In this document: piece after piece, positions 2,238 to 17,380 of the stretch | Layout of the letters: each line of letters begins with the position of its first letter | How positions within the stretch are numbered: the first letter of the stretch is position 1 | Virus record (IMG/VR): IMGVR_UViG_3300046782_000193 | Location: 1-26,244 of that record | DNA: 26,244 nt | Reading direction: 5' to 3' (one strand) | Origin: a virus | Notes under the pieces: generated by a model | What the model was told of the DNA's origin: nothing | Seen by the model: only the letters and a program-made list of their open reading frames with translations | Database searches by the model: none | Position numbers and translations under genes: made by a program

Positions 2238-4046
2238 TTATGTCAAGATGATCTTCGGGTCTATGTAATAGGTCGTCGACGGCTTCGCGGCGCGCACCCG
2301 CGCGTGCAGGTAGCCGGCCATGCCGGGCTGCGGTGAGGACAGCGTGGCGGTGAGCTTGAAGGGGGACCAACCTGCGCCCGAGCCGCCGCCGTTCCAGGTC
2401 GAGCCATCCGACGCGATCGCAGCGTTCGCCGTCAGCAGATTGGCCTTGGTCGTGGTGACGATCGTCCCCAGCGGACTTCCAGACGACCCCAAATACTCGA
2501 CCTCCAGCCAGATGTCGTCGTTGTTGGGCAGTGCCCCCGCGTTGACCGTCCCGCACACCGTCACCGTGACGTTGGCACCGGTCGTCGGGTTCCAAATCGC
2601 ATAGGGCTCGGCCTTGAACGGCCGCAGCCACTGCGAGTTGGCGGTGGTGACGATCTTGCGCGATTGCGCTTGCCCTGTCGGATCGCTTGCGCCGCCGACG
2701 CGCGTGATCGCGGTCTCGGTCGTCTCGGCGCCCTCATATTGATAGCGGGCGGACTTGTAACCGGTTGCTCCGCTGTCGGAACGGACCATCTGAATGACCT
2801 GCGCCAGGGCCGCGGGAGCGGGCGCCGACATCGAAGCGTTCAGCTTGCAATCCTTGACTACGAAATTGCTCTGCTCAGAGGACTGCGCATTGCCGACAAG
2901 ACCACCAGTGAGCTGGCTCAGATCGAGCGCCTCCAATGTCATAATTCCAAAACGACTAGTGCTGGACCAATTGAAAAGATTTGTCGGCACCGACGATCCG
3001 CTCGCCAATATTTGCCCACTATTCTGCCAAGTAAAATTGACGACTCCAACGTCGATGAATTGCTGGACGGCTCCAAAGCTCACCGTGCAATTGTTCCATG
3101 TCATGGCACCGGCAGCATTGGCGACATTCAATTGAACCGCTTGTGCGCTTGCAAGAGTGGTCGCAATCTTAAAGCCGCAATTATCAAAATAATAAAACGC
3201 ACCGGCTGGCGTCAAAAGAATCTGCGCAGCACCGGATGAGCCCACCCCCGCCTGAAACGTAATGCCGTAAATATAAATGCCACCTGTGTTCGGATTAAAA
3301 GTTAGGTTAAGTGCCGCGGTAGTCGAGATTGTCGCACCGGTCGCGACAGACGTAGGCGGGTAGCTGCCGGAATGGTTATGGCAGATTATCCGGCTCATGG
3401 TCGCAGTAGTAAGCGCAGGCGTGATCGTGATTGCCGTTGCCTGCGACTCGGCGTGGTTGTCGCCAATGTAGATCGTGTTACCAGCAACCCACCAAGTCGC
3501 GGTGCAAGCGTTCTGCACCCGCGCGTGCGGGGCTTGTCCGCCGGTGAAGTTGCCCACCACGCCCAAGCATGTCCACGTTACAGTGCTGTCAGCCTGTGTC
3601 GTACCCGCAGTGTTGTTCGCCCAAGCCGGCTCGGATGCGCCTACGCTTCCCGCCGTGCTGCATATCCAGTAGCTCGCGCCGTTGTTGCGCTGGATGATTG
3701 CGCCGAGCGTGACGGCTGTGTTAATCGCCCTTGCTTGCGACCATGTCGGTGTGTTGGTCAGATCGCCGTTGACCGCAGACGCGCCCGTGCATTCCTGCCA
3801 AGTGACCGTGTTGTCCGTCGTCTTCGCCCCACGGGTTAAAACCCAGGTCGGCTCGGTCGTGGCATTGGTGGTGCCAGCGACGATACAAACAAATACGCGC
3901 TCGCTGTTGACTGCAGGAGCCGTATTTTGTCGCCGCAAGGCGCCAGCGGCGATAGTCGCGCCTGTCGCCCATTTCGTGACGGCATAATAGCCGGTGGTCG
4001 ATTGATCCCCGGCGTTGCAGTACCAAGCGAGATCGTAGAATGCCAT
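2238..4046 (-). CDS. Tail fibre or tailspike-like protein
   Basis: A 602-aa, cysteine-dotted, beta-rich protein. Residues about 35-165 hold two tandem copies of a module reading roughly vFxCxxAGTTxxxEPTW...DxTVTWxCxG, common in phage tail-fibre proteins. The middle (about 165-400) is rich in short beta stretches with NC-type turns, as in right-handed beta-helix spikes. The C-terminus (about 430-602) looks like a beta-sandwich suited to receptor or sugar binding. The DNA for the middle part looks AT-richer than its flanks. Location after the tail-tip genes supports an adsorption role; the receptor is unknown. Confidence 0.65.
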   Translation of the reverse strand: MAFYDLAWYCNAGDQSTTGYYAVTKWATGATIAAGALRRQNTAPAVNSERVFVCIVAGTTNATTEPTWVLTRGAKTTDNTVTWQECTGASAVNGDLTNTPTWSQARAINTAVTLGAIIQRNNGASYWICSTAGSVGASEPAWANNTAGTTQADSTVTWTCLGVVGNFTGGQAPHARVQNACTATWWVAGNTIYIGDNHAESQATAITITPALTTATMSRIICHNHSGSYPPTSVATGATISTTAALNLTFNPNTGGIYIYGITFQAGVGSSGAAQILLTPAGAFYYFDNCGFKIATTLASAQAVQLNVANAAGAMTWNNCTVSFGAVQQFIDVGVVNFTWQNSGQILASGSSVPTNLFNWSSTSRFGIMTLEALDLSQLTGGLVGNAQSSEQSNFVVKDCKLNASMSAPAPAALAQVIQMVRSDSGATGYKSARYQYEGAETTETAITRVGGASDPTGQAQSRKIVTTANSQWLRPFKAEPYAIWNPTTGANVTVTVCGTVNAGALPNNDDIWLEVEYLGSSGSPLGTIVTTTKANLLTANAAIASDGSTWNGGGSGAGWSPFKLTATLSSPQPGMAGYLHARVRAAKPSTTYYIDPKIILT

Positions 4047-4051
4047 GAAAG

Positions 4052-5368
4052 CTAACCCTCGATATAGATCACTGTGGGCTGCGGGGTGGCCGGCATGATC
4101 GGGCCATCGAGCGCAAGTGTCCCATCAAAGCCCGCAGCCGCTGCCAGTGCAGGCGTATTGAACGCGTCACCATCGGTCAGAATGCCAGCCAATAGGTTTT
4201 GGGTGACGCCGATATTTGGCGCAAGGAACGCGTCCACATCTACAACGAGGCTCGGCACATGCGGCGCGTCCCCGATGACGGGCACGTAGATCGGCTCGGG
4301 ATCGACGACCGAGACGACCGGGAACAGGGGAGCGCGATTGACGACCGGCGCGGCTACTGCATCGGCTCCCAGCAATGGATCGTAGGCGACGCCGATGCCC
4401 TGCCCTTCAAGAGGTGGATAGAAGGTGTCGCTATCCACGACCGACGCGGATGTGAGATAGGTCGATTGCAGAACGATGGTCGGGGACGAAATGAACTCGC
4501 CGGCATCGACATACAGGGCGAATGAGCCGGGCTGCCCGAGAGCCAGACCGTTAATGATGTCTGCGGCGATGACGATGGGTGCACCGAATCCTCGCGCGAG
4601 CGACACCACGGGGAATGCGTCATCCGCAGGAACGGTGCCGGGGACGACGGGAAGCTGCTGGGTGGGCGGGTAGAACACATCGCCATCGACGAGAGCGGCC
4701 GGCGCGACCGGTCCGACCATACCAGCCGACCACACCACATCAGCGCTGCTGACCGATGCCGGCGACAAATATCCGAACGGCGGCGGTGTATAGGACGCGG
4801 TCTCACTGACCAATGTCTCGAGCAAGACACTGGTCGCAGCAGTCGTCTCGTCGAGATGGATGACTTCGCTGTCGGTCGCGAGTGCCATCTGTTGCGTGAC
4901 GATGGTGCGACCGGCACGTTCGACAATGGGGCCATAAACAATATCGACATCGACAACATTGCTGATCGGGACAGTCTGATTGATGGTCGCCTTGCCTTGC
5001 GTGATCTTCCTGGCGCCACCGAAGACATCGACGTCCACGAACAACTGCGGGCCGAGCACCTTGCTGAGCACCGTCGGCCTGTAGACAACGTCGGCATCCG
5101 CGAGCGGCGGGGCCACGATTGCCGCACTGAAGCCTTTGGTAAAATTGTAGACGGCATCGGGATCGACATACACCGGCGGGAAGATGCTCTTGGCGACATC
5201 ACCGACATAGGCAGCATAGATGAGATCGCCTTCATTGAACTGACCTTCGAACAAAAGAAAGCCGGGAACGGAAACAATCGCCGATGGGAAGCTATCCGGG
5301 TCACTCCACAGCGGTATTGTCGATGCGGATGGGATCAACAGTTCTTCGGCGATGACTCCATCGAGCAT
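4052..5368 (-). CDS. Asp-rich ~22-residue tandem repeat protein, fibre block
   Basis: This 438-aa protein is almost wholly about 19 degenerate units of 21-23 residues, each centred on V-D-x-D-x-F/V-x-x-P, for example VDGDVFYPP, VDSDTFYPP, VDVDAFLAP and TDGDAFNTP. It has no signal peptide, TM helix or long helical region. The period and strand-turn pattern suggest a beta-solenoid or fibrous shaft, and the paired Asp residues could bind metal; both are inference. The first ATG after an in-frame stop is used. A second protein of this kind lies at 15222-16442. Function unknown; a virion surface fibre is most likely. Confidence 0.65.
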   Translation of the reverse strand: MLDGVIAEELLIPSASTIPLWSDPDSFPSAIVSVPGFLLFEGQFNEGDLIYAAYVGDVAKSIFPPVYVDPDAVYNFTKGFSAAIVAPPLADADVVYRPTVLSKVLGPQLFVDVDVFGGARKITQGKATINQTVPISNVVDVDIVYGPIVERAGRTIVTQQMALATDSEVIHLDETTAATSVLLETLVSETASYTPPPFGYLSPASVSSADVVWSAGMVGPVAPAALVDGDVFYPPTQQLPVVPGTVPADDAFPVVSLARGFGAPIVIAADIINGLALGQPGSFALYVDAGEFISSPTIVLQSTYLTSASVVDSDTFYPPLEGQGIGVAYDPLLGADAVAAPVVNRAPLFPVVSVVDPEPIYVPVIGDAPHVPSLVVDVDAFLAPNIGVTQNLLAGILTDGDAFNTPALAAAAGFDGTLALDGPIMPATPQPTVIYIEG

Positions 5369-5417: not shown

Positions 5418-6239
5418 TCAATCGCTTAAGATCAAAGGAGGTGGATCCTGAAATGGAATGCCGTAAAGAGGTCCCTGGCTATACGTCATAATTTTTACAT
5501 CCCATTCGGGAGGTTTTTTGCTCTCGGCATAAACCTCACCGGTCCCGGATTTATCCAGTCGATATGCATTCAAATAGTATCCGGTGTATGTAACGTGCTC
5601 ATCGCCAGCGAATCCAGGATGCGAAGAAATAACCGGATAGCATTGCACCATGGAATTGGGCAAAGGCTGAGGTTGTGGATTAGCCTGGTCGTCTCTATGC
5701 GGGCCATAGCGCATTTTCCATGGCATGGTTACGTCCGGGACCTGGTCTCCGGTCTCAATGCTCCAGAGCAACCCGGATGGAGCTATATCGGAAGGCAGAT
5801 CCGCGTTCCCTGCATTTACTATGTAAAGCGGAGCTATGAGTTTTGTACCTGCGGTGGCATTAGCTAACCCACCATCAACAGCAAACGCATCAACAGCAAA
5901 CGCGAGCACAACCAACCTGGCGCCATTGACATCGTTAGGCTGTGGCAGATCTGGAGATACCGACGTGAGGAATTCAACAGCATTTCCTCGGACTTGATAG
6001 GCTGAACATTTGAATGGGGCCTGATCGTTGCTCCATGTAGGCGCAGTCCAAGTGTCTAAATATGTGCCTGATTTACTCGTCGTCAAAGACAACGTAAAAA
6101 CGAGTTGAGGTTCAAATGGCGACACTTCCATGAACACAACAATGGCATTTCCTGCTCCCCAACTCACATTGACGATGTTCTGAAATGGATCAAGCCGCCA
6201 CGGCGGGTCGATTACGGCATTGCCATCGCCATTCGCCAT
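5418..6239 (-). CDS. Putative tail-tip or fibre-associated protein, unknown function
   Basis: A 273-aa protein of mixed beta character opening MANGDGNAVIDPPWRLDPF. The start is the ATG at 6239, which overlaps the preceding stop (TGATG); an in-frame ATG at 6281 would cut into the neighbour. No known domain is recognised. An exact tandem duplication of 15 bp (5873-5902) gives FAVDAFAVD. Position among fibre-like genes argues for a virion component. Confidence 0.55.
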   Translation of the reverse strand: MANGDGNAVIDPPWRLDPFQNIVNVSWGAGNAIVVFMEVSPFEPQLVFTLSLTTSKSGTYLDTWTAPTWSNDQAPFKCSAYQVRGNAVEFLTSVSPDLPQPNDVNGARLVVLAFAVDAFAVDGGLANATAGTKLIAPLYIVNAGNADLPSDIAPSGLLWSIETGDQVPDVTMPWKMRYGPHRDDQANPQPQPLPNSMVQCYPVISSHPGFAGDEHVTYTGYYLNAYRLDKSGTGEVYAESKKPPEWDVKIMTYSQGPLYGIPFQDPPPLILSD

Positions 6240-6862
6240 CACAAACCTTCGGATAAGATAGCATTGACGTCCTGTGCCCAATTCTGTTTCGAGTACGACT
6301 GCCCCCGGTTTCGCTCGAGCGTGTGACCGTCAATGATCTCGATATCGATATACTGGCCTTCGTCCTTTGCCTCTTGTGTCAAAACATTGAAGTAATCCCC
6401 GGGATCGCTTGGCGGCTGCCCATTCGTATCGAGCCGAACATCAGGGATGTCATAATGGTAAACGCGTTTAACGTGGACCTCACGAGTCTCGTTGTCTTCG
6501 TGGTTCTCGAAAAAGACCCGGTAGGTATTGTTGGCGTCCTCGATGACCAACTGACGGCGAAGCGGGATTTTGATCGTCGTGCCGCTACCTGGATGGCCTG
6601 GAGTTGGCGGGTTGCTCGGATCGAAAATTTCCTTGAACTCGATGTAATCGGTGTCCTGACCGCTGGCCGCTGCAACGTCAGAGTCGAAAGTGCCCCAATC
6701 AAAAGAATATGTTATTTTTTGCAAACCCAGATTGTCCGCTTGCGGTGCCGTCACGGTCATTTCGGATATGCGCTCGATGTCAACCCAGACGCCGCTGGTT
6801 TGGTCGTCGTCCTTATAGATCCGTTTAATGATACTGACCCGATCGTCTCCAGCCACGATCAC
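6239..6862 (-). CDS. Putative virion protein, unknown function (GTG start)
   Basis: A 207-aa acidic protein. The GTG at 6862 is chosen because it forms a GTGA overlap with the upstream stop at 6859, the coupling pattern seen throughout this operon; the ATG at 6895 would run well into the previous gene. Segments include VWVDIERISEMTV, an IEFKEIFDPSNPP linker and a C-terminal IDIEIIDGHTLER stretch. No domain is recognised. Tight coupling to fibre-like genes on both sides suggests a tail-tip part. Confidence 0.5.
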   Translation of the reverse strand: MIVAGDDRVSIIKRIYKDDDQTSGVWVDIERISEMTVTAPQADNLGLQKITYSFDWGTFDSDVAAASGQDTDYIEFKEIFDPSNPPTPGHPGSGTTIKIPLRRQLVIEDANNTYRVFFENHEDNETREVHVKRVYHYDIPDVRLDTNGQPPSDPGDYFNVLTQEAKDEGQYIDIEIIDGHTLERNRGQSYSKQNWAQDVNAILSEGL

Positions 6863-7698
6863 ACTCCCGCTGCCAGCAGCCCAAACACGTCCCAATTATT
6901 GGCACTGATCTTCTTTGCCGTGATCACGGCACCATTGCGTCCCGTTTGAACACTTCCATCACTGAACAAAAAACCGACTATCGGACTGAGTGACACACCG
7001 GAAGCCGCCTGCAAAATCACGGGTGCGCTCGTGCATTGACGAAACGTGATTTCACAGGCAACCGGAAAGGCCAAAGTCGAGTCATTTGGAATGATGATTC
7101 GGCAACCGGAGCCATTGATGCAGCGCACGTAGCTTGCGATGTTGTCCAATGTCACGGTGTAGGTCGGATCTGGTGCCTCCCGCAACGCCTGTGCCGGGAA
7201 CACCAACGGTGTCCGCCAAGCCATGTCGTAATCGGCATCGGAGAGTTTGTAGATGTACTGCCCGGCAACCCCGCCGGCAGGAATAGTGTTGGCGGGATTG
7301 GTCAGCAATAACCCGTAGTAAAAATGACCGTCCCCGTCATTAGCATACGGATCGAACGGCGATGCACTGACATGGTTGAACAACACCATGTACGTGCCCC
7401 CATTGTAGCTAACGACATCGTTGAGATTGTACAGGGTATTGGTAACCCATTGCCCGCGAAAGTTCCACGCCAGCTGCGGTAACGCGAACGGTCCCTGGAT
7501 GGTACCGTTGCTCATGTGGATATAGAAAAGATTCCCGCTGACCTCGAAGGACGAAATCGAGACCAGCGTTGGGATGTTCTCCTCGGTGACGGTCAGCCGG
7601 TTATTGATGTCGTAAAAATTACCGTCGACCTCACCGGCAACGAGGTTAGCTCCCTTGCCAGCGCCCCACGGTCCGGCCGTTCGGTAAATGATCGGCAT
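6859..7698 (-). CDS. Tail fibre protein with chitin-binding-like module
   Basis: A 279-aa protein. Residues 23-40 (GEVDGNFYDINNRLTVTE) match the common phage fibre start motif in which a VDxNF segment runs into a short coiled coil. Residues about 78-110 read WNFRGQWVTNTLYNLNDVV followed by SYNGGTYMV, like the compact CBM5/12-type modules frequent in tail fibres. The C-terminal part (about 170-279) is beta-rich with a signature resembling fibre-tip domains. It probably contributes to sugar binding at the cell surface. Start is the ATG at 7698. Confidence 0.7.
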   Translation of the reverse strand: MPIIYRTAGPWGAGKGANLVAGEVDGNFYDINNRLTVTEENIPTLVSISSFEVSGNLFYIHMSNGTIQGPFALPQLAWNFRGQWVTNTLYNLNDVVSYNGGTYMVLFNHVSASPFDPYANDGDGHFYYGLLLTNPANTIPAGGVAGQYIYKLSDADYDMAWRTPLVFPAQALREAPDPTYTVTLDNIASYVRCINGSGCRIIIPNDSTLAFPVACEITFRQCTSAPVILQAASGVSLSPIVGFLFSDGSVQTGRNGAVITAKKISANNWDVFGLLAAGV

Positions 7699-7711
7699 TT
7701 TTCATTAATCC

Positions 7712-8044
7712 TTACGGCACACCGACGATCGGAATAGGAGGAGGACCTTGCCCGCCACCTGGATCTTGGACAGGTATCGGAGGCGGGGCACCGGCCGGAG
7801 TCCCAGTCCCGGATGGTTGTCCCTTTTGTTTCTTCTCCTTGACGACGGCGTCCATGTAGTTTTTCCAACTACGTGAATAACTACCGGAGGTTTTTTGCGT
7901 GGACGGTCCAGATCCTGCCCCAGCCCCTTTTCCGATCGCCAATGTGGTCGCTGGTGAAGGTACCGCCGGACTCGTCTGCGCCAGTGCGGGTGGTGTCGTA
8001 TCAACGACCACGAACGGTCGAATTATTTGCTCGAGACTAGGCAT
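7712..8044 (-). CDS. Pro/Gly-rich low-complexity tail-region protein
   Basis: A 110-aa protein whose start overlaps the stop of the large tail-tip gene (ATGCCTAG). The N-terminus (MPSLEQIIRPFVV) may form a docking helix. A helical KNYMDAVVKEKKQKG segment lies near residues 61-75, and the last 35 residues are dominated by Pro and Gly (PPPIPV repeats). No domain is recognised. Disordered linkers of this kind can bridge tail-tip and fibre proteins, which is inference only. Confidence 0.5.
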   Translation of the reverse strand: MPSLEQIIRPFVVVDTTPPALAQTSPAVPSPATTLAIGKGAGAGSGPSTQKTSGSYSRSWKNYMDAVVKEKKQKGQPSGTGTPAGAPPPIPVQDPGGGQGPPPIPIVGVP

Positions 8045-10001
8045 TGGCCGCTTCTAGATCCACCAGTTTGGGAACGGTTAGAAACGCAACGCCGAGATCA
8101 TATTCGGCATGGTATGTTTGCCCGGCAACTGGCGCGATGTTGATTTCGAGCCAGGTCGGATTGTACCGTATCGCATCTTCGTAGGCCTGCCATACGGAAG
8201 TTTGGCCTTGCTGGACCGTTTGGTATTGATTGGAGGCACTTCCCGATGGACTAACGTCCGACGTATTGGGATCGGTGGAGAAGTTGGGCACGAATGGTTG
8301 TGACGAGGTGATGTCACTGACCTTCGCGCCGTGATGAATTTCAAACTTCGTCACCAATTGGCCGTAGGTCAATGGCGTCACCAAGCCATCATCGACATTG
8401 AACGACGCCGGTATTTCGATCGTCAGGTCATCGGTTGGAAGTGTCAAATCAGCGTTGGTGTAGAACTGATACCCCACTGCGACATAACCGTCATCGGCGT
8501 AGGTCGGACTCCCCTCCGAAACGAAAATCTGATCACCGGTGCCGATCGTCGACTCCAACTGGATCGTCCCGATCAATGCGCCGGTGTCACCGATGCCCTT
8601 GATATGGTACTCGGTGATTTTCCCGATGATCTGTCCAGCGGGCAGTCTGGGGTCATGGAGCAGTACATTCTTACGGCAACTGAGATTCAAAGCCCGTTCG
8701 AACGTGCAATCGAAACTCACCTTGATCGCACGCGCGGACATCATCAAATGAGCCCGGGCGATCAACATCGGATAGATCATGGATTGCAGCCCGCGGTCGG
8801 TCGGCAAGAACGTACTGCGTCCAGAATACCCCAACGGCGGTGGAGTTCCCGCCACCGAAAGGGTCACATCGGTGCCTTGCATCGATATCTTGATCGGATT
8901 GAAAGGCTCGTCCTGAGGCACGGTAATGATCGATTGCAGCTCGCTCTCGACGACAAATTTGAGTGTCTCGGTGCGCCCCCGTTGCATCTCGTATTGCAAC
9001 GCCATGTTCCCCTGCACATTGTTTCCGCCACTGGCAGGAACATCCATGATCCCCGCAAAGGAGGCATTGTAAAATCCCTCACCGGCCTGGCCGGTATGCG
9101 GGTCACCGCTAACACTGGAGCCATTGACATTGAAAGCGCCTCCAGAAGTGTAGCCAGTTATCGACAAGTCATAGGACAACAGGTCCCCATTTGAATGGTG
9201 AGCCGAGAAATTCTTGATCTGAATGCTTACATCCTGCGGGGCATCCTCTGTCACCGACCCACCGCCACCAATACTGATCGAACTGCTGGCGACACTGACA
9301 CCATTCCCTAATTGATCACCAGGGGCAGGCCAATCAGCGGCTACCTGCGCCGCGTTTACAGCACTAAGGCTGGTGGCCGGTACGGCAATCACACCGACTT
9401 CCTGTTGGGTCCAATTGATCGTGCCGTCGAAGATCACCATGTTCTGCGGGGCTTGCGAGAAGGAAATCGCAACACTGTCGTAATAGGAGTCTTCCAATAG
9501 AAACTCCTCGGTCCCGTCTTCGCCGAAGGTGATGTCACTGATACTGACCGTCTGTGCGAACCGGTCCACGTGCCAGGACGAGGTGTAGGTTTCGAGAATT
9601 GTGTCGGGATCGTCCAAATGGGATTGATCGATCCAGATCGGATCGTAATACGGCGAAACCTTCAACGTCTCGGCCACCGCCTGCTTCTGGGCAAGGTAAT
9701 CCACGGGGCGAGCCAGGAATTTCAGCGTGACCACTTCCCCCAGCAGGTTCGACGGTAGCGCAACCAGCCGTCCGTAAAACAAGGGCGTGACAACACCACT
9801 CTGGGCCTGCCAGGAGAACCACGACCATTGCATTCTACCGGGCGCCAACAATCCGACGTGCGGGTTCTTGACCTCGATGTCGAGCGTGGGAATTTGTCCC
9901 TCGGTGTGGACGATGTCGAACGACAGAACAGCCTCGTCCTCGCGCAAATGCGCGGCGCTGAAAACCTCACCCGGACCGCACCACGCAAAATAAAACGGCA
10001 C
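8037..10001 (-). CDS. Large tail-tip / baseplate hub-like protein
   Basis: A 654-aa protein just downstream of the tape measure and one smaller tail gene, where siphophages keep their tail-tip hub. Its N-terminus (VPFYFAWCGPGEVF, then LREDEAVLSFDIVH and a KNPHVGLLAP segment) resembles beta domains of hub proteins. A Gly/Ser-rich insertion (about residues 225-335) looks like an added beta-sandwich. The GTG at 10001 is preferred: GAAGAGG precedes it and it begins one base after the previous stop; the frame extends upstream only through that neighbour. No lytic motif is evident. Confidence 0.65.
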   Translation of the reverse strand: MPFYFAWCGPGEVFSAAHLREDEAVLSFDIVHTEGQIPTLDIEVKNPHVGLLAPGRMQWSWFSWQAQSGVVTPLFYGRLVALPSNLLGEVVTLKFLARPVDYLAQKQAVAETLKVSPYYDPIWIDQSHLDDPDTILETYTSSWHVDRFAQTVSISDITFGEDGTEEFLLEDSYYDSVAISFSQAPQNMVIFDGTINWTQQEVGVIAVPATSLSAVNAAQVAADWPAPGDQLGNGVSVASSSISIGGGGSVTEDAPQDVSIQIKNFSAHHSNGDLLSYDLSITGYTSGGAFNVNGSSVSGDPHTGQAGEGFYNASFAGIMDVPASGGNNVQGNMALQYEMQRGRTETLKFVVESELQSIITVPQDEPFNPIKISMQGTDVTLSVAGTPPPLGYSGRSTFLPTDRGLQSMIYPMLIARAHLMMSARAIKVSFDCTFERALNLSCRKNVLLHDPRLPAGQIIGKITEYHIKGIGDTGALIGTIQLESTIGTGDQIFVSEGSPTYADDGYVAVGYQFYTNADLTLPTDDLTIEIPASFNVDDGLVTPLTYGQLVTKFEIHHGAKVSDITSSQPFVPNFSTDPNTSDVSPSGSASNQYQTVQQGQTSVWQAYEDAIRYNPTWLEINIAPVAGQTYHAEYDLGVAFLTVPKLVDLEAANA

Positions 10002-10002
10002 G

Positions 10003-10461
10003 TCATACCTCTTCGAGGTCGAGCTCCCAGGGCACCGTCCCCGCCCACTCGTCAATCTGCGCCGTGTTGGTCACAACCATCATGGTCAGACGCGGGCGGT
10101 AAAACACGAAACTCCCCTCAGTGAAATTGGAGCCGATAATCACCAGGCGTTGCGGCGTCCCACCAAGCGGGTAGCTCAAAAATGCGGCGCAATCGACCGT
10201 GACCGTCAACCCTGGCCAGACCCCGTCGAATGACGGGGTGCGCATGTCGGTGCATGTGATTTTGGATTTGTACTTGCGGAACTGTTGGTGGGCGACGTCG
10301 GTCAGTATCCCATTGATCGACCGTCGCATGTTCTTTGCCGCATCTATCGGCTCCAATGTCTGCGACAGCCCACGCGCCGAGTACAACGGCACTCCCATGA
10401 CGCTGATGGACAGCACGGTCTGATCGTTTGAAGGCGGTCCTGGGTAGAGCGGAGCGGGCAC
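10003..10461 (-). CDS. Putative distal tail protein
   Basis: A 152-aa beta-rich protein encoded between the tape measure and the large tail-tip gene, the slot used for distal tail or tip-connector proteins. The GTG start follows the tape measure stop directly. Segments such as GVPLYSARGLSQTLEPIDA and KITCTDMRTPSF are visible, with no catalytic motif. The assignment rests on order and size only. Confidence 0.5.
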   Translation of the reverse strand: MPAPLYPGPPSNDQTVLSISVMGVPLYSARGLSQTLEPIDAAKNMRRSINGILTDVAHQQFRKYKSKITCTDMRTPSFDGVWPGLTVTVDCAAFLSYPLGGTPQRLVIIGSNFTEGSFVFYRPRLTMMVVTNTAQIDEWAGTVPWELDLEEV

Positions 10462-14509: not shown

Positions 14510-15225
14510 ACGATGGCAATTCCCGGGCTGTTGCGCCGCATCACCGCGAGGAACATCAAGCCATATGACGAATTGGTCAACGACGGATAGGACGACCCAC
14601 CGGAAGCTGTGGAAGCCGCAGCGTACTGGACCGAGATCTGTCCGATATGTTCCGAGGTGACCAATCGGCCGCTCCCGCCTGCCGACGCCTGGCCTTGCGC
14701 TATGAAGTGGGCCGCCAGATAAAAGGTCGCGGCTTGCGCATCCACTGGATCCCAATCATCCCCAATGAACAGCGCAGCCTCGTCCAAAGCCGTCTGCACC
14801 ACACTGTCGTCCACCGCCATGAACTCCGGGAACATGGATTTGAAAGCGACGACATTGATCGGATTCGCGGTGTCGATCACCGTCATCGTTCCGATGGTCG
14901 GCGTCGAGCGCCGGTTGTCGGCCAACGGATCGATGATGACGATCTCATAATAATAGTTGCCGGATAGAGCCATGGTATCGGCGGAAGCGAGCAGAACCGA
15001 GAAAGCATAAGACGGCGCATCCTCGACGACGATGCTCCCGTCGGATGTGGTCTTGATGACGACCGACATGGTTTTGTCGGCAACCCCGCGCACCTGCGGA
15101 TAGGCGGTCCAGGTCATGTTTACCTGCGCCATGTCAAACGGCGGATCGGGCGGTGGCACGATGCCATAATCGACATCGGTGTCATCGCCCGCGATCAGAC
15201 TGAAGTTTTGCCGAAGCTCGGTCAT
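14506..15225 (-). CDS. Head-tail adaptor (DUF4054-like) with N-terminal beta domain
   Basis: A 239-aa protein in two parts. Residues about 128-239 match the DUF4054 head-tail connector pattern: FKSMFPEF, VVQTALDEAALFI, ATFYLAAHFIA, and a final SYGLMFLAVMRR. Residues 1-125 are an additional beta domain (FSLIAGDDTDVDYGI, NMTWTAYPQV, SYAFSVLLASADTM) like Ig-type baseplate or fibre N-terminal modules. DUF4054 adaptors are usually about 120-150 aa, so the fusion is notable. It would dock below the portal. Confidence 0.7.
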   Translation of the reverse strand: MTELRQNFSLIAGDDTDVDYGIVPPPDPPFDMAQVNMTWTAYPQVRGVADKTMSVVIKTTSDGSIVVEDAPSYAFSVLLASADTMALSGNYYYEIVIIDPLADNRRSTPTIGTMTVIDTANPINVVAFKSMFPEFMAVDDSVVQTALDEAALFIGDDWDPVDAQAATFYLAAHFIAQGQASAGGSGRLVTSEHIGQISVQYAAASTASGGSSYPSLTNSSYGLMFLAVMRRNSPGIAIV

Positions 15226-16442
15226 GCTGCAGTATCAATCGAACCTTTGAGGGAGTGTGTCTTCATGCCACCAACCATGTAGGCCGGGCCGGACATCGAA
15301 CCGACAAGCCGCGAACCCTGCGTGGAATGGTAATGGCCGCCACTGACGCGAGCGGAGAAAAAGCGATCAAAGTCGATGTATCTCGGCATGGTGAAGATAG
15401 AAATCTGATTGAATGTCGCCCTGAAAACAACATCCAACACCTCGTAAGGATACGGTCCGATATTCGCATCGCCACGCATGCATACCGATGCGTACAACAA
15501 ATCGGTGTCCCCGAACCAATCGACCTGCATCCCGACCGGCCCCGGAAGCATGGACGAGCCGCTGAACGCATCGTCATGCGTCGTGTCGGGATCCTGCCAC
15601 AAAACATCACCAGGCAAAGCGACGACATCGTGGGATTGGTCGTCGTCGGTCACCAATGAGGCAATTAACGCGGCGCTCGCCTGCAGATCGGGCGGGTACT
15701 CGGCTTCCGGCGCAGCGATGAAACCCGCCGACAAACTCACAACACCAGGAACCAGGGTCGAGTCGGAAATGATGTCCGCGTCCATGATGCCCAGCTCCGG
15801 CATCAAATGGCCGAAGGCCGCTACCCCGTCAGGATCTAACGTGTCCTCGACATCGACATGGGTCGATGGCGTCAAGTACTGGATCATCAGCAGGACAGCC
15901 GATGACATGACCTGATCAGCATCGATCACGACTGCGGCGGTGGTGCTATATGACCCGACGATATCCGGCTCAATGACGGCTTCAAGATCACTGACCAGCG
16001 ATGGTGCCATCTGAACGGCACCGACACTCATGGATGGACTGCAAATGAAATCGTTGTGACCAACAGGCGGTGTAAAGATAATGAAGGTCGTTTGTATGTC
16101 ATACGACCCACCGACAGAATCATCATAAGATTCCGGCTGCAAGGTCGTCAGGCTGACAAGAGCCGCGCTGCCCACCCCGTCATTGTCGATCCAATCCTGC
16201 GGTGTGGTCCAGGCAGTGCCGAACAGCGCCGGCATCCAAAATATACTCGTGTCATTGAACAGTGTCGGTCGTTGAACATTACCCGCACTGGCAATCGGGG
16301 CAGGAAACAAATCCCCGAGATCGTGGAAGATAGCATCGACCAAAACCACACTGATACCATTCGGTGTGTGAAAGTCCTCGACATCCGTGACGAGGGACGG
16401 TGGACCGATGGTCTGCGATTTTGCCCTTAGGTCAACGTCCAT
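15222..16442 (-). CDS. Asp-rich repeat protein, connector block
   Basis: A 406-aa protein with degenerate repeats of roughly 22 residues built like those of the 438-aa protein at 4052-5368: VTDVEDFHTP, VIDADQVMSS, HVDVEDTLDP, IMDADIISDS, FGDTDLLYAS. The repeats fade near residue 330, and the last 70 residues (TMPRYIDFDRFFS, then RVSGGHYHSTQGSRL) form a different C-terminal part. The ATG at 16442, preceded by AGGAAG, is preferred over the ATG at 16475, which lies further inside the upstream gene. It overlaps the adaptor gene by ATGA. Function unknown; a head or neck fibre is a reasonable guess. Confidence 0.6.
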   Translation of the reverse strand: MDVDLRAKSQTIGPPSLVTDVEDFHTPNGISVVLVDAIFHDLGDLFPAPIASAGNVQRPTLFNDTSIFWMPALFGTAWTTPQDWIDNDGVGSAALVSLTTLQPESYDDSVGGSYDIQTTFIIFTPPVGHNDFICSPSMSVGAVQMAPSLVSDLEAVIEPDIVGSYSTTAAVVIDADQVMSSAVLLMIQYLTPSTHVDVEDTLDPDGVAAFGHLMPELGIMDADIISDSTLVPGVVSLSAGFIAAPEAEYPPDLQASAALIASLVTDDDQSHDVVALPGDVLWQDPDTTHDDAFSGSSMLPGPVGMQVDWFGDTDLLYASVCMRGDANIGPYPYEVLDVVFRATFNQISIFTMPRYIDFDRFFSARVSGGHYHSTQGSRLVGSMSGPAYMVGGMKTHSLKGSIDTAA

Positions 16443-16758
16443 TCGGCTTCCTGGTCGCATCCGGATCCATGACATACGGCATGCGGAGGACTTGGGTGTG
16501 GGGGATCACCGTCCGCCGCCTGCCTGTGGTTGCGTCATAGTGATTGGCCAGCAACATTTGCTTGCCACGACCAAACAGCTCATCGAATTTCTGTTCGGCG
16601 TCCTTTCGGAATGGATAGTTTTGTCGGATCGCATTGATCAGCATATTGACCGCCGCGCCCAGCACCGCCTCGATTGGCATGCCGGTCGAGGCGTGCGTGA
16701 TCATGTCGAACAGCACCCTTTCGTCACGAGGGAGGTGTCTGAGCGGGTCGTCAACCAT
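16432..16758 (-). CDS. Conserved-looking small head-block protein, unknown function
   Basis: A 108-aa, mainly helical protein starting MVDDPLRHLPRDERVLFDMI, with GAAVNMLINAIRQNYPF, KFDELFGRGKQMLL and a HYDATTGRRR segment. The layout seems familiar from alphaproteobacterial phages, but I know no function. The ATG at 16758 overlaps the upstream stop by 8 nt, which fixes the start against the longer open frame. Confidence 0.6.
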   Translation of the reverse strand: MVDDPLRHLPRDERVLFDMITHASTGMPIEAVLGAAVNMLINAIRQNYPFRKDAEQKFDELFGRGKQMLLANHYDATTGRRRTVIPHTQVLRMPYVMDPDATRKPNGR

Positions 16759-17380
16759 GCAGCGCGCGCTCCATGACCTTTGGATAGTCGACGGCCTGAT
16801 ACGCGCCGAGCCGACCGACGCAGTCGGGATATTGGTCTTCGACCTCATGCGCCAGCAAACCGATCGAAGGCATATGGGAACGACGGTAGCTGTACCGATA
16901 GAGCGGTAGCCCATCCGGTAGTTCGCCGATACGAATGATGTCTTCTTTCGCTTCGGCGTCGCTCAGCGTGAAGATCCCGGATGCATTCCAAGTAATCACG
17001 ATGTTGCCGCCGTTGGGCGTAACAGGCAAACCCGTCACGGATGTGTCTTCGAACAACACCAGGCGCCAGGTGGTGTTGGCACCGGCGTTCTGCCGGTAGA
17101 TCACGATCGCGCCGACCACCGTGCCGGAAACGGCCGTGAAGGTGACGTCGTCGCCGTCGAACGTGCCGTTGACCACCGTCGGGGTGGTGATCGGCTGCGG
17201 CGTTCCGACGATGTTCGACAGCGACGAATAGAACTGATGCGCTGCCGAGTAGGTGTAGCCGGACGAGGTCGTGATCAAGGCCGCGTAGGGCGCGTTGCTT
17301 CCGGTTTGGTTGAGCGACTTGTTGGCGTCGGCTTCAGTAAGAAGCGACTGCTTGAATAGCGGATATACTGCGTTTGCCAT
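16751..17380 (-). CDS. Head-block structural protein with minimal S74 self-cleaving C-terminus
   Basis: A 209-aa protein. Residues 1-138 are a beta-rich structural part (FDGDDVTFTAVSGTVVGAIVIY and ITWNASGIFTL), like small capsid-associated proteins. Residues 140-209 match the endosialidase-type intramolecular chaperone (peptidase S74) pattern: SDAEAKEDI, DGLPLYRYSY, IGLLAHEVEDQYPDCV, VDYPKVMERA. The Ser140 and Lys145 spacing matches the family's self-cleavage Ser-Lys pair. S74 tails usually end long trimeric fibres; here the domain is near-minimal and the protein is encoded among head genes. AGGAGG precedes the ATG. Confidence 0.7.
   Translation of the reverse strand: MANAVYPLFKQSLLTEADANKSLNQTGSNAPYAALITTSSGYTYSAAHQFYSSLSNIVGTPQPITTPTVVNGTFDGDDVTFTAVSGTVVGAIVIYRQNAGANTTWRLVLFEDTSVTGLPVTPNGGNIVITWNASGIFTLSDAEAKEDIIRIGELPDGLPLYRYSYRRSHMPSIGLLAHEVEDQYPDCVGRLGAYQAVDYPKVMERALHG

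Follow-up and report, generated by a model that had tools for sequence, protein, structure and literature searches.

A modular 22-residue repeat protein as a probable virion-surface stalk of a tailed phage

This analysis indicates that the 438-aa protein encoded at positions 4052 to 5368 on the minus strand (P0001, here called the target) is probably a virion-surface stalk built from a modular, length-variable repeat, and one of two such proteins in a tailed phage, a reading to which we assign a probability of about 0.6. The window, meaning the whole stretch of DNA analysed, is an entire viral record of 26,244 bases. It carries genes for a portal, head protease, major capsid protein, head-tail adaptor, major tail protein, tape measure, fibre and lysozyme, all on the minus strand. 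The target gene is read from 5368 to 4052, and stop codons interrupt the plus strand over this interval; the original prediction gave its position and length correctly, and the gene lies on the minus strand. Orthologues were found in L002 and in L205-L208. Comparison with the L002 orthologue, which is 86% identical, gave a dN/dS of 0.197, and purifying selection acts on the gene. The protein contains 47 D or E residues against 11 K or R, and D or E occupies 30 of its 36 paired positions, in agreement with its earlier description as Asp-rich. No match was obtained in Pfam, in PHROG (searched at E 0.1) or among solved structures in a PDB search, and the GGxGxD (RTX) motif was absent when the sequence was read by eye.

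The repeat array spans residues 14-411 of the target (positions 4136 to 5329, minus strand) and comprises 18 units. Units of other phage proteins (393 distinct ones, none from the target or its orthologues) were combined into a position-specific profile, which recognised 11 non-overlapping units in the target with a score of 85.1, corresponding to a z of 30.6 against 300 shuffles of the target (mean 1.7, SD 2.7, maximum 18.7). Apart from a second repeat protein, P0003, the other ORFs of at least 150 aa in the window scored no higher than 5.3. When the target was tiled by a chain of units with spacing restricted to 18-30 residues, 19 segments were obtained at steps of 19-28 residues (mostly 20-23), with a total of 107 against a maximum of -58 among 200 shuffles. 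Eighteen of these segments are believable, and the 19th, which scores -9.6, is not. Several units with scores near or below zero are canonical in orthologues of 50-55% identity, such as unit 259, which reads WKLLPGIVLDQDIFIGPAFAQP in the L205 orthologue, and the register of the repeat is preserved in these orthologues. The independent profile, the chain and the orthologues together bear out the predicted architecture, in which some 19 units, each of roughly 22 residues, take up almost the entire protein. The period of 22 was only weakly visible by raw autocorrelation of the target (z about 2.5), so that the family profile was needed for the internal repeat to emerge clearly. In an hmmsearch, a hidden Markov model limited to one unit lacked the length to tell the target from its shuffles (9.9 against 6.0), and a repeat-aware profile scan was therefore adopted.

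Pattern scans over viral contigs and bacterial genome contigs revealed clean copies of the target's unit in many proteins, for instance VTLAPSLFTDADTFYAATVTPGA and LTPALFTNTNTFYAATV. The 514 strict-motif units collected from 71 proteins are mostly spaced by 22 or 23 residues, and a few scans sufficed to assemble a 22-residue DxD/NxN repeat family with about 70 non-redundant environmental phage loci. Further loci are found in bacterial genomes (Mesorhizobium, Rhodoferax and a Christensenella metagenome-assembled genome), and cultured members include gp68 of Pseudanabaena phage Pam2 and protein XAI96042 of Microcystis phage Mwe-JY26 (z 18.6). The target belongs to this family, since a unit profile to which it had not contributed matches it significantly and in tandem. 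The family is widespread in phages and has no Pfam or NCBIfam model of its own. PHROG 8501, for which "minor tail protein" is an annotation label, was matched by 13 of 35 relatives with a best E of 4.6e-24; it was matched neither by the target at E 0.1 nor by P0003 and P0004 at E 1. The statement in the original prediction that no named family could be recognised consequently holds for the target itself with respect to Pfam, PHROG and PDB, but not for its relatives, which form a large family filed partly under PHROG 8501. A literature search on the motif, on Pam2 and on 22-residue phage repeats found no description. For all its wide occurrence, the family is curated under a single PHROG label only.

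Members of the family differ in architecture and in length. Many consist of repeats alone, and others carry an extra N-terminal domain of 100-400 residues, which in L044 is Pfam Gly_rich_2 (E 7.6e-25). The number of units per protein ranges from a few to more than 20. In two loci with identical upstream sequence over 500 nt, L024 and L025, the difference is exactly one 23-residue unit, which shows that units are gained or lost whole. Such changes would allow the length of a stalk to evolve quickly. Many relatives (L062, L067 and L013, for example) also have short C-terminal tails with R-x-x-M every 10-14 residues, as in LPRRSMTVQELPRRSM; these tails are possibly docking peptides.

P0003, which was missing from the original prediction, is a 417-aa protein of the same repeat family (positions 15222 to 16475, minus strand) with 16 units over residues 22-380. 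The unit profile recognised nine units in it (z = 19.7), and its chain total was 54.9 against a shuffle maximum of -85.5. Its orthologues are 80-86% identical, and a dN/dS of 0.244 indicates purifying selection here as well. One of these orthologues, L214 (contig G005, 34527-35759, minus strand; 80% identical), is broken by a single in-frame TGA. The two-copy arrangement is kept in the L002 contig and in G005, G006 and G008, and the first-slot copy of G008 is just 27% identical to P0003. A 602-aa partner protein is encoded at positions 2238 to 4046 on the minus strand, starting 5 nt after the stop codon of the target, and in each of the eight loci examined its homologues adjoin a repeat gene. 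A mosaic boundary between 5418-10055 and 2238-5368, both on the minus strand, was seen in the identity to the L002 phage: three genes of 5418-10055 are 42-67% identical and the fibre gene at 6859 is 73% identical, as against 86-89% for the target, P0003 and the gene at 2238. The fibre-like protein encoded at 6859-7698 (minus strand) carries a CBM 5/12 carbohydrate-binding module.

The location that we propose for the repeat proteins is derived from their gene neighbourhood. Among non-redundant loci in which over 5 kb of sequence precedes the repeat gene, a phrog_644 gene lies upstream of it on the same strand, at a distance of 4-3265 nt, in 29 of 30 cases, and never downstream. The sole exception is L002, the target's own orthologue, whose contig also carries a P0003 orthologue. 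In the reverse direction, a repeat gene was present in the 4 kb after phrog_644 in 41 of the 44 loci where at least that much downstream sequence was available; this set is partly dependent, as its query had been taken from repeat loci and a few contigs occur more than once. phrog_644 is detectable in 318 of 50,697 phage records, mostly mycobacteriophages. The structural cassette of the relatives places the terminase large subunit, portal and phrog_644 genes upstream of the repeat gene, and scaffold, major head protein (capsid) and head closure genes downstream. In the window, the phrog_644-type "arm" protein is encoded at positions 16751 to 17380 on the minus strand (phrog_644 E 4e-20), and P0003 follows directly downstream after 275 nt, in the family's usual slot within about 3.3 kb of the phrog_644 gene. 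The target sits outside this slot: it is an additional copy some 11 kb past the phrog_644 gene, on the far side of the tail fibre genes. The arm protein has a C-terminal extension resembling the S74 chaperone, for which Peptidase_S74 scored 18.7 bits, below its cut-off of 22; the L016 homologue scored 36.4 bits, and an S74-like tail is present in 15 of 128 distinct arm-protein homologues. The phrog_644 profile matched PDB 9d93_Ra, the "tail wing arm" gp31 of phage Bxb1, with an E of 6.2e-11, and at the level of sequence the phrog_644-type protein is homologous to this arm. As the position of gp31 in the virion is solved, the linkage provides a direct hypothesis for the location of the repeat proteins, in which the stalk would probably be mounted through, or together with, the arm protein.

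With regard to the paired positions of the unit, a strict either-or rule was observed. The motif columns were masked during unit finding, and 909 distinct units from 68 non-redundant proteins were compared. The pairs comprised 278 acid-acid, 522 amide-amide and only 3 mixed acid/amide cases (3 of 803), whereas permutation within proteins gave 42 mixed pairs on average and a minimum of 24 in 2,000 trials. Among 406 further units, which served as a second set, 4 of 310 pairs were mixed, against 27.5 expected. Most family members carry an Asn-Asn pair rather than an acid pair. In target orthologues at about 50% identity, the paired acids stay acidic at 107 of 115 positions, compared with 35 of 60 for other acids (Fisher p 7e-8), and unit position 11, the second of the pair, has an identity of 0.87, against 0.25-0.67 at all other positions. 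Covariation and conservation in the sequences thus support the view that the paired Asp act as one functional unit. In its simplest form this element would be a shared site for a cation or a ladder of acids, and the amide pairs may be its ion-free equivalent. Ion binding by the target's Asp pairs is plausible. GC content as a cause of D or N units was rejected, since no correlation was seen (rho -0.06).

Coupling also arises when whole units are copied, and the rule could instead be a by-product of such copying after a few ancestral acid/amide switches, without any bearing on function. We find this doubtful, although acid units are clustered in runs within mixed proteins, where neighbouring units switch type 23 times against 36.8 expected, and units are more alike within a protein (0.62) than between proteins (0.51), both of which would follow from such copying. 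In L019 and L119, an acid unit generally has no closer relative among foreign acid units than among the amide units of its own protein, which suggests that switching probably occurred more than once; almost no intermediates are left, and the paired acids are the most conserved positions in the target orthologues. Read as a functional signal, the either-or rule marks out a functional element of two residues within a repeat protein, cleanly and in a way that can be checked.

The original prediction of a solenoid or fibre shaft remains plausible for the target, and each unit of 22-23 residues would contribute at least two short beta strands that meet at the DxD (or NxN) turn. The proposed check by monomer structure prediction failed for the target, as AlphaFold2 gave an unusable model with a mean pLDDT of 39.5. 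For the relative L012, modelled from an alignment of 35 sequences, it gave a beta-helix with a pLDDT of about 70-78 in the repeats and regular short strands at unit positions 0-2, 7-9, 13 and 17. AlphaFold2 is reported to over-predict confident but unrealistic beta-solenoids from repeats, stacked uncompensated charges being a hallmark (PMC11795689), and the L012 model may be such an artefact. Both a beta-helix and a trimeric fibre were therefore kept as candidate folds. The former would be a monomeric right-handed beta-helix of the filamentous-haemagglutinin type with 22 residues per coil and an Asp/Asn ladder at one turn, forming a rigid rod of about 90 angstroms. We hold it only tentatively. 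Besides the regular strands of the L012 model, it draws on the alignment of this model, on second look, to the HMW1 secretion domain 2odl (Z 16.6, rmsd 3.5, 275 aligned residues; Foldseek E there 4.7) and on a hit of the NCBIfam haemagglutinin beta-helix repeat model in one family member (E 1.5e-7). Foldseek found nothing below E 0.001 among PDB and viral models, its best PDB match having an E of 2.1, and this, together with the solenoid bias, the low pLDDT of the target and a unit spacing of 19-28 residues that is loose for a helix, counts against it.

A homotrimeric beta fibre shaft with intertwined chains, of the kind seen in adenovirus or phage tail fibres, in which the pairs would hold ions along the threefold axis, is in our estimate rather unlikely, and it too has points in its favour. 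The S74-like chaperone tail of the neighbouring arm protein is typical of trimeric fibres, the monomer prediction of the target fails, and coupled acid or amide pairs would suit axial cation or anion sites. The adenovirus shaft repeat, however, has 15 residues rather than 22-23, and no sequence match to any solved fibre was found. The very low pLDDT of the target, its excess of acidic residues and the variable linker lengths would also be compatible with a flexible, largely disordered acidic tether between binding domains and the particle. Strict coupling of the pairs and strong conservation of aromatic and aliphatic residues (F/Y, L, V, P) would both be unexpected in a tether, which we therefore regard as very unlikely.

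The stalk reading is affected by several of these observations. The sequence data demonstrate the array, the existence of the family, its linkage to phrog_644, the selection on the genes, the pair rule and the gain or loss of units; where the protein sits on the virion, its shape as a stalk, its attachment to the arm and any binding of ions are inferred. The distance of the target from the phrog_644 gene, outside the usual slot, and the lack of a confident AlphaFold2 model count against it. The extra N-terminal domains of relatives allow a further explanation, namely that the repeats could be linkers inside adhesins rather than stalks. For a stalk, the same domains would be carried by the repeats in many relatives; their absence from the target suggests that it works purely as a spacer or shaft alongside the adjacent 602-aa partner. 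A more far-reaching proposal is that the family represents a widespread, undescribed class of phage stalks mounted on a conserved "wing arm" protein, in which acid units that bind cations and amide units that do not are mutually exclusive. We consider this broader claim improbable; if it were true, a phage could tune the length of its stalk by the number of units, and its stiffness or ion dependence by their type.

Among known systems, PHROG 8501 covers the same repeat as found in the relatives, leaves the target, P0003 and the L002 orthologue unmatched, and offers no fold or role beyond its label. In the tail wing of mycobacteriophage Bxb1, which consists of the base gp30, the arm gp31 and the brush gp33 (PDB 9D93), gp31 is homologous to the phrog_644 protein adjoining the repeat gene, and gp33 is encoded two genes after the arm gene. 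The wing brush gp33 is a glycine-rich polyproline-II bundle (PMC13243192) and not a 22-residue repeat, and its unit-profile score is 0. A glycine-rich likeness between L044 and gp33 was considered as homology and found no support (BLASTP E 23). Pseudomonas phage F116 encodes a 987-aa protein, gp51 (L122:6217-9180), with units of about 21 residues (P-x-G...G-x) downstream of its phrog_644 gene. It was rejected as a member with a unit-profile z of -0.5, and since the profile does not recognise it, gp51 is at most an analogue in the phrog_644-adjacent slot. The mycobacteriophage proteins Brujita gp24 and Krili gp60, annotated as "minor tail protein" or hypothetical, are made of roughly 22-residue units whose P...V spacing is that of the family, and they are encoded immediately after the phrog_644 gene. 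Their unit-profile z values of 1.2 and 4.7 make them a lead rather than members, and Brujita gp24 was not assigned to the family because its score is too weak. In contrast, Pam2 gp68 and Mwe-JY26 XAI96042, both annotated as hypothetical, are clear members of the family in cultured cyanophages.
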